A stretch of DNA of 64,000 nt from Streptomyces sp. RPT161. GTDB taxonomy: Bacteria > Actinomycetota > Actinomycetes > Streptomycetales > Streptomycetaceae. The notes under the pieces were generated by a model, which saw nothing but the letters and a program-made list of their open reading frames with translations, ran no database searches and had not been told where the DNA came from. Position 1 is the stretch's first letter. Every line of letters begins with the position of its first letter. Of the stretch, positions 62,275 to 63,483 are shown one piece after another. The stretch covers positions 1-64,000 of the forward strand of contig NZ_JAPZVN010000014.1 of assembly GCF_027533845.1 (NCBI RefSeq), read 5' to 3'. The position numbers and the translations under genes were made by a program.

Positions 62275-62435
62275 GAGCGGCCGTCGGACTTGGTCCGGTT
62301 TGCCCGCCGGGGCCCTGAAATGCGTCATGGTCGTGATACTGACGGTGACGAGCGGGTGCCCCGCGTGTGAGCCTCCGCATAGGGCGCAGGTCACTTACGA
62401 AGGCGTGTAGTGGACGCATAAAGGTGCCGTCAACA
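62275..62435. other. Gap after the molybdenum-hydroxylase-like operon
   Basis: The 161 nt before the terminator can be read as short ORFs on both strands. A 27-codon + strand ORF at 62327-62410 contains CPAC, and a minus-strand frame beginning at 62394 contains CALC. Neither has a good ribosome site. A short transcript ending at 62464 is possible. Confidence 0.25.
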
Positions 62436-62464
62436 GGGCCGCCACGGGCTGTGGCGGCCCTTTT
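62436..62464 (+). terminator. Intrinsic terminator
   Basis: GGGCCGCCAC (62436-62445) pairs exactly with GTGGCGGCCC (62451-62460) across loop GGGCT and is followed by TTTT. One of the few terminators here with a clear U-tract. Confidence 0.88.
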
Positions 62465-62533
62465 CGCGCCCGCTGGCCGACCCCGTTTCCACTAGTGCGG
62501 ATAGTAGGTCACATCTTTGCCAGCGGATTTTCC

Positions 62534-62652
62534 GGTCGCTAAGAATTGCCGAGCCGCAGGGCGCCGTGGGACATGAACGCGGCGCCTATCGCCGAAAAAG
62601 CGAAGGCGTCGCCCGGACTATGTGCCGGACGGGCGACTGCGGCTCAGCGACC
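62534..62652 (+). ncRNA. Structured 5' leader, candidate riboswitch-like element
   Basis: A 119-nt segment just before the SLT gene closes on itself. P1 is GGTCGCT (62534-62540) with AGCGACC (62646-62652). P2 is GAGCCGCAG (62551-62559) with CTGCGGCTC (62637-62645). Inside are a hairpin GGCGCCG/CGGCGCC (62560-62586), a short stem CGCC/GGCG (62590-62608) and a stem TCGCCCG/CGGGCGA (62609-62636). The P1-P2 junction keeps 10 unpaired bases (AAGAATTGCC) on one side only. The ribosome site starts 2 nt after P1. Streptomyces lytic-enzyme genes are known to carry c-di-AMP riboswitches, but the hallmark sequences of that class are not visible here. Confidence 0.55.
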
Positions 62653-62674
62653 TGGAAGAGGAACCAACTCAGCC

Positions 62675-63424
62675 ATGCCCATGCCCGCCTTTCCCGCTCT
62701 CAACCGCATGACCCGGACGACCCTGACGCACCTCGACGGCCTGACCCGGAAGCACAAGCTCTCCGCGGCCGGTGTCGCCGTTGCCGGCGCCTCAGTCCTG
62801 GCCTTCACGGTCGCTCCGGGATCGGCGCACGCAGCCAACCTCAGCAACCCGGTGATGTCCGCCGCCATGGCGTTCAGCACGTCGGACGCCGGCTCCGCCC
62901 CCCAGAGCCAGCAGGCCAGCATCTCGCAGCAGGTCGCCGAGGCCGTCAAGCCGGTCAAGGACCACGCCTCGGCCCAGCACCAGGCCGCGCGGAACAAGGC
63001 CGACGAGGCCCGGCGCAACGAGCCGCAGGCCGCGAACCGCTCGGAGTCCCGCCCGGCCGCCCCGGCGCAGGCCGCTCCGGCCCAGCCCGCCCCGGTGTCG
63101 TACCCGAACAACCTGGACGGCTGGATCCGGCAGGCGCTGGACATCATGCACAAGAACGGCATCCCGGGTACCTACGACGGCATCAAGCGCAACATCCTGC
63201 GCGAGTCCAGCGGTGACCCGAACGCCATCAACAACTGGGACATCAACGCCCGGAACGGGATCCCGTCCAAGGGCCTGCTCCAGGTGATCGACCCGACGTT
63301 CAACGCGTACCACGTCGCCGGAACCTCCCACAACATCTGGGACCCGGTCGCCAACATCGTGGCCGCGTGCAATTACGCCGCGAACCGCTACGGCTCGATG
63401 GACAACGTGAACTCGGCCTACTGA
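62675..63424 (+). CDS. Secreted SLT-domain lytic transglycosylase
   Basis: The 249-aa precursor has a long Sec signal peptide (membrane core about 30-48, cleavage likely after AHA), a Gln/Ala-rich spacer and a C-terminal soluble-lytic-transglycosylase domain (about 150-249). The catalytic Glu is in NILRESSGDPNAINNWD, followed by SKGLLQVIDPTFNAY and NIVAACNYAANRYGS. It should cleave peptidoglycan glycan strands outside the cell. ATG 62675 is preceded by GGAAGAGGAA; ATG 62681 is possible. The structured leader just upstream suggests RNA-level control. Confidence 0.9.
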   Translation: MPMPAFPALNRMTRTTLTHLDGLTRKHKLSAAGVAVAGASVLAFTVAPGSAHAANLSNPVMSAAMAFSTSDAGSAPQSQQASISQQVAEAVKPVKDHASAQHQAARNKADEARRNEPQAANRSESRPAAPAQAAPAQPAPVSYPNNLDGWIRQALDIMHKNGIPGTYDGIKRNILRESSGDPNAINNWDINARNGIPSKGLLQVIDPTFNAYHVAGTSHNIWDPVANIVAACNYAANRYGSMDNVNSAY

Positions 63425-63445: not shown

Positions 63446-63483
63446 ACGCGGTGCCGGTAGTGAATTCACTACCGGCACCGCGT
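63446..63483 (+). terminator. 38-nt perfect palindrome after the SLT gene
   Basis: The sequence is exactly self-complementary from 63446 to 63483 around GAATTC, giving an extended stem 22 nt after the stop. It would end the SLT transcript. Confidence 0.8.

Follow-up and report, generated by a model that had tools for sequence, protein, structure and literature searches.

The stretch in front of the SLT transglycosylase gene of Streptomyces sp. RPT161 raises the question of whether a structured RNA leader precedes this gene and, if so, where it begins, to which class it belongs and what it could do. The window analysed here is the whole 64,000-nt stretch of contig on which the gene lies, and the features discussed are collected in Table 1. 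The C-terminal domain of the encoded protein P0001 is an SLT domain (Pfam PF01464, 29.7 bits against a cut-off of 21.3). According to the first-pass annotation, made from the letters alone, positions 62534-62652 form a closed RNA leader with perfect outer stems of seven and nine base pairs, three inner stems and a one-sided 10-nt bulge, ending just before the ribosome site. The minimum-energy fold of these 119 nt reaches -68.3 kcal/mol, compared with -47.7 ± 3.8 for 200 shuffles, none of which folds as low (z = -5.43); folded from the predicted transcription start, the leader still gives a z of -4.5. The fold reproduces the 7-bp outer stem (GGTCGCT/AGCGACC), the 10 unpaired nucleotides on one side (62541-62550), the three inner stems (10, 3 and 8 bp) and the end 2 nt before GAAGAGG. 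The second stem, named P1 here, is 8 bp long rather than nine, the ninth pair (62559-62637) being possible as an alternative only. That the outer stems are longer than expected by chance is borne out by 5,000 single-base shuffles of each stretch: an end-joining stem of 7 bp arises in 1.7% of those of 62534-62652, and one of 8 bp in 0.6% of those of 62551-62654.

Table 1. Features of the leader locus (positions in the window; strand relative to the window as read)
Feature	Positions	Strand	Remark
Left copy of CCACTA-N7-TMGTANGTSAC, inverted relative to the right copy	62390..62413	-	zero mismatches; putative regulator site
Right copy of CCACTA-N7-TMGTANGTSAC	62489..62512	+	zero mismatches; overlaps the upstream edge of the conserved block
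Block GTCACAYNTTTGCC-N6-TTTT-N3-G-N-CGCTAASAATT	62508..62547	+	conserved among relatives
Predicted -35 hexamer TTGCCA	62517..62522	+	promoter scan
Originally proposed outer stem, 5' arm	62534..62540	+	in promoter spacer; unsupported as RNA
Predicted -10 hexamer AAGAAT	62541..62546	+	promoter scan; originally proposed 10-nt bulge starts here
Predicted transcription start region	62551..62554	+	inferred from the -10 box and the S. lividans distance
P1, 5' arm GAGCCGCA	62551..62558	+	at predicted mRNA 5' end
P2, 5' arm	62559..62568	+	counterpart helix covaries in main Streptomyces group
P2, 3' arm	62578..62587	+	
Small 3-bp hairpin	62591..62607	+	predicted fold
8-bp hairpin (62608-62615/62630-62637)	62608..62637	+	predicted fold
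P1, 3' arm TGCGGCTC	62638..62645	+	
Originally proposed outer stem, 3' arm	62646..62652	+	transcribed; pairing with 62534-62540 unsupported
Ribosome-binding site GAAGAGG	62655..62661	+	sequence
SLT gene, 249-aa protein P0001	62675..63424	+	transglycosylase SLT domain; secreted by the look of the N-terminus

Two further structures were seen by eye around the gene. A 38-nt perfect palindrome (63446-63483) follows immediately on the stop codon of the SLT gene and precedes a tRNA gene encoded on the opposite strand; it is perhaps the SLT transcription terminator. A GC-rich hairpin followed by TTTT (62436-62464) lies between an upstream molybdopterin-dehydrogenase-like gene (named by eye) and the SLT promoter; the terminator scan, which needs five T, does not count it.

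The most obvious candidate class is the c-di-AMP riboswitch (RF00379, ydaO/yuaA), which likewise forms the leader of cell-wall hydrolase genes, both in this genome and in S. lividans. Two reports describe c-di-AMP riboswitches as controlling cell-wall-hydrolase-like genes (PMC8079986, PMC10117811), and the S. lividans study places one of six such leaders before SLIV_15360, annotated only as 'transglycosylase' (PMC8079986). The same genome provides a positive control in the form of six RF00379 copies scoring 40.9-95.8 bits; the frames after five of them encode, by eye, M23-like and NlpC/P60-like peptidases and an Rpf/LysM-like protein. By comparison, RF00379 has no match at its gathering threshold (38 bits) in the whole window or in 20 homologous loci, and none up to an E-value of 10 in 62380-62700. 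Membership of the c-di-AMP family, including the divergent membership suggested at first, is therefore rejected. The same annotation had already remarked that the leader lacks the core of that class, and the core stretches of the six true copies are indeed absent; the helix, moreover, starts here at the predicted +1 region. Among the other Rfam families, no match covers the leader, and a leader from the main Streptomyces group gives a single match (E = 1.7), far below the cut-off.

The boundaries of the leader depend on the promoter. Positions 62280-62700 hold a single sigma-70-like site (0.1 ± 0.3 in shuffles), made of TTGCCA and AAGAAT separated by an 18-nt spacer. This is pattern evidence: the hexamers agree with the E. 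coli consensus at 9 of 12 positions, and the spacing falls within the 16-18 nt range. The promoter is presumably HrdB-like. As in the TAnnnT form given for the -10 box of sigma-70-type streptomycete promoters in PMC8079986, A stands at position 2 and T at position 6, although the T at position 1 is missing from AAGAAT. The bulge proposed at first consists of this -10 box plus four nucleotides, and the outer stem has its 5' arm within the spacer; neither should therefore be present in the RNA. In S. lividans, the distance from the -10 hexamer to the start is 6.3 nt on average, with a range of 4-9 nt (PMC8079986), which would place the start here within the region given in Table 1.

The promoter hexamers are embedded in the conserved block. 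With at most three mismatches, it occurs in 232 of 394 family genomes, from 6 of 17 genera. A class-wide sample of another scope, also of 394 genomes, gives 34 matches, all within the 40 family rows, and none in the 354 others; the reversed control pattern yields zero among the matches listed. BLAST with a 201-nt query matches 110 of 297 family genomes, often only in part, and these genomes represent 8 of 17 genera. The exact block pattern occurs in at least 120 stretches of genome contigs, and the 80 listed come from Streptomyces, Kitasatospora and Streptantibioticus. In the samples searched, the block is thus restricted to Streptomycetaceae. Conservation around the block spans about 60 nt, and because the pattern fixes the internal spacing, conservation inside the block is partly imposed. 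Thirty of the 31 loci found by BLAST (L001-L031) differ from the spacing-fixed pattern by one substitution at most, the exception, L004, being a weak match elsewhere; of 20 further stretches, 17 match the box and three (L164, L165 and L171) do not. At up to five mismatches, 167 box matches were found in 177 loci, some genomes occurring twice, and 146 of them are followed by a reading frame with an SLT motif (a text motif, not a Pfam match); the 21 lacking such a frame lie apparently mostly in short or end-cut stretches. One genome (G264) carries seven copies of the block, six of them identical, on contigs C2, C5 and C9, while most matching genomes show one. A hairpin around ATTTT, between the -35 and -10 boxes, was considered and set aside, as none of its internal column pairs is among the best 45 of the 3,686 scored in the leader alignment.

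Compared with a sigma-70-type promoter, the conserved block reaches well past both hexamers, so a dedicated regulator is likely to act besides that promoter. A candidate site is the paired upstream motif. Among the 157 homologous loci whose upstream sequence extends over 290 nt or more, 156 carry its left copy (at most three mismatches), 148 of them distinct; none of 785 single-base shuffles does. The right copy is found in 146 of the 157. In 145 of these 156 loci, the GTCACA box and the far end of the left copy are 105-106 or 116-119 nt apart. In the genome as a whole, the motif occurs at 10 places with at most two mismatches, compared with 17 for the reversed control, and therefore only the five places with zero mismatches were used. 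Two of these are the copies described here, one lies at a LysM-SLT paralogue (L180) and two near contig ends. In the latter two (L181 and L182, on contigs C51 and C67), additional GTGAC...TCACA half-sites come after the left motif; a repeated element may have interrupted the assembly here. With regard to known regulators, CutR was rejected, its motif (TAWATAAA) bearing no resemblance, and the MtrA sites are described as a consensus of 7 bp or as direct repeats of loose conservation, in a form that offers no letters to compare with the paired motif.

The conserved GCCGCTAASAATTGC stretch could also be read as RNA, with transcription starting further upstream and the 10-nt bulge forming a conserved unpaired core, an idea to which the 60-nt conservation and the two perfect stems flanking the block in the window lend some appeal. 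It nevertheless conflicts with the promoter scan match, with the fixed spacing in 30 of 31 loci and with the LysM-SLT paralogue of the same genome (domains by eye), which also carries the left motif and in which a TTG lies 23 nt from TAAGAAT, exactly as in the window. Length variation among the leaders, furthermore, begins right after AATT, and the outer stem on which this reading draws is not kept among relatives, as described below. A start further upstream is, thus, distinctly unlikely.

Conservation of the helices was analysed in 134 distinct leaders from the 146 loci, cut at the chosen start codon (corrected for a few). To keep pairing from guiding the alignment, the 5' portion was aligned independently of the portion preceding the ribosome site, and 3,686 column pairs were scored over the 80 sequences less than 92% identical. 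Two P1 pairs rank third and fourth, and are the best pairs between the two blocks, the first and second both lying inside the 5' block. One of these P1 positions is paired in all 80 leaders (GC 70, CG 9, GT 1), and the other in 57 of 80 (TA 22, AT 17, CG 16, TG 2). Across the 134 leaders, P1 has standard pairs in 646 of 714 cells (90%), compared with up to 54% for slid versions; one of its six pairs can be scored in 44 rows only, the alignment having split that column. The 7-bp outer stem, proposed as part of the element, is paired in 543 of 932 cells (58%), with slid versions reaching 51%. The events inferred on the protein tree amount, for P1, to 5 double-compensatory changes, 12 one-sided pair-keeping changes, 20 breaks and 10 restorations, and, for the outer stem, to 2 double and 13 one-sided pair-keeping changes, 35 breaks and 30 restorations. 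The proposed structured RNA leader before a lytic transglycosylase gene thus stands, although its boundaries have to be moved: in the comparison of homologues, the conserved helix is P1, the next one in from the outer stem. Covariation fails to support the outer stem and supports the second, although the signal is weak in the clade to which the window belongs.

In all 134 leaders, P1 starts 6-8 nt downstream of the -10 box (7 nt in 113 of them); given the mean of 6.3 nt in S. lividans, its first base probably falls among the first few nucleotides of the mRNA. The predicted helix of the paralogue (CCGCAG/CTGCGG) likewise starts 7 nt after its -10 box. At the other end, 11-18 nt separate the end region of the P1 3' arm from AGAGG. 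Folding single sequences gives P1 a mean probability above 0.5 in 45 of the 80 leaders, and P1 is favoured in 3 of 9 leaders of the group with GTCC/GGAC arms, these groups being rough text rules that misplace some leaders. A reading of the leader as coding sequence, through a TTG frame at 62546 running into the SLT gene, was rejected because the predicted leader lengths are distributed about evenly over the residues modulo 3 (41, 50 and 43 of 134) and because 36 of 134 leaders have an in-frame stop ahead of the start codon.

High-GC leaders fold strongly as a rule, and the fold could be of this ordinary kind, without function, with P1 conserved through shared ancestry. The weak covariation within the window's clade alone would fit such an origin. 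The z values of -4.5 to -5.4 against shuffles nevertheless speak for something more, as do the high ranks of P1 pairs from separately aligned arms and the three pair types (TA, CG and AT) at one P1 position, which makes functionless folding unlikely.

The interior of the leader was compared in two alignments, one with 31 of the 42 leaders of the main Streptomyces group and one with 19 of the 20 assigned by a text rule to the window's clade (L022 being left out). For the main group, the unaided RNAalifold prediction contains P1 and a long P2, together with a small hairpin that covers the ribosome site. P1 is invariant there, and therefore shows no covariation, while four P2 pairs are changed on both sides (18 of 500 shuffles score as high); the ten cells changed on both sides all fall in P2, a number reached by none of 500 shuffles. 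In the window's clade, RNAalifold predicts P2 and not P1, although 85.1% of the P1 cells are paired, one pair occurring as UA 8, CG 3, UG 2 and AU 1, with 5 unpaired. The covariation score of the whole structure (0.073) is equalled in this clade by the structure slid by +2, and pairs changed on both sides are no more frequent than in shuffles (476 of 500). On inspection, the interior differs between clades in sequence, length and architecture.

These differences bear on the proposal that the leader represents a new riboswitch class, for a cell-wall or second-messenger ligand. A multi-helix domain adjoining the ribosome site of a cell-wall hydrolase gene is what would be expected of one, and the c-di-AMP riboswitches on similar genes, SLIV_15360 included, constitute a precedent (PMC8079986, PMC10117811). 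A ligand-binding RNA should, however, share its core, and inspection of the leaders listed among the 134 and of the two clade alignments reveals no unpaired core common to all clades; together with the varying interiors and the lack of an Rfam match, this renders a new class highly improbable. The features of the leader fit a structural clamp on the mRNA better than a switch that senses a metabolite.

The ribosome site itself suggests another mode of action. In the main group, the ribosome site is contained in a GAGGTC to which a GACCTC segment, overlapping the GAGCGAC of P1, is complementary; part of the resulting hairpin appears in the RNAalifold prediction, and 97.8% of its cells pair. P1 and this hairpin could, thus, form a ligand-free translation switch, decided by temperature, salt, RNA chaperones or ribosome loading, in line with the low median unpaired probability predicted for the ribosome site (0.25-0.36 by group). 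Such low values may nevertheless be ordinary for high-GC genes, and the predicted fold of the window has no hairpin of the GACCTC/GAGGTC type: its ribosome site is placed in a loop closed by three base pairs and is only partly accessible across the ensemble (mean unpaired probability 0.43). A switch acting primarily on translation is, on balance, somewhat unlikely.

The reading favoured here, tentatively and with a probability of roughly 0.45, is that of a 5'-terminal structured leader, or clamp, within a promoter-leader cassette of SLT transglycosylase genes in Streptomyces and its near relatives. The promoter with its strongly conserved 40-bp block would start transcription at about 62551-62554, and the first RNA bases would then pair, as P1, just upstream of the ribosome site; the helix is drawn from comparison and its place at the 5' end from the promoter. 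P1 would close nearly the whole 5' UTR into one domain, whose interior would be free to change, holding the upstream RNA away while leaving the ribosome site outside the closed domain. With its 5' end paired, the message may be attacked slowly by enzymes needing a free 5' end, such as the pyrophosphohydrolase, RNase J and a 5'-sensing RNase E, and opening of P1 would shorten its life. In the main group, opening of P1 may also allow the competing hairpin to form over the ribosome site; since GACCTC overlaps a P1 arm and pairs with the GAGGTC of that site, translation could be reduced as well. One can go further and imagine a cell-wall checkpoint, in which the first bases of the mRNA and the segment opposing the ribosome site compete for the same strand, and a cell-wall-stress signal (protein or ligand) sets P1, gating the synthesis of the lytic transglycosylase with no conserved aptamer core; this is a long shot.

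The clamp reading itself has precedents in the 5'-terminal stabilisers known from the ompA and papA leaders of E. coli and the aprE leader of B. subtilis. In such stabilisers the helix lies at or within about 2 nt of the 5' end. Like these, the present leader would combine a paired 5' end and a strong leader structure with a gene for a secreted or envelope protein. It differs from them in that its closing helix joins the predicted first bases to those before the ribosome site and encloses several stems. Work by Emory in 1992 and by Bouvet and Belasco in 1992 reportedly found 5'-terminal base pairing to stabilise E. coli mRNAs. RppH of B. subtilis needs at least two unpaired 5' nucleotides (PMC3997798), and Streptomyces possesses RNase J together with an RNase E homologue with tabulated 5'-sensing residues (PMC10126417). 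By analogy with the E. coli and B. subtilis cases, a stabilising role may be proposed for the clamp.

No earlier description of this leader was found among the titles and abstract openings listed from the open-access literature, and, with no Rfam match either, we take it to be an undescribed element of a known kind. Cell-wall hydrolases need tight limits, and the RNA-based control found described for them in Streptomyces is the c-di-AMP riboswitch. The present leader adds a second RNA element, of unrelated structure, on a different hydrolase gene. Should the clamp prove functional, it would be a compact case, with numerous natural variants to compare, for testing whether message life in high-GC actinobacteria depends on pairing of the 5' end.
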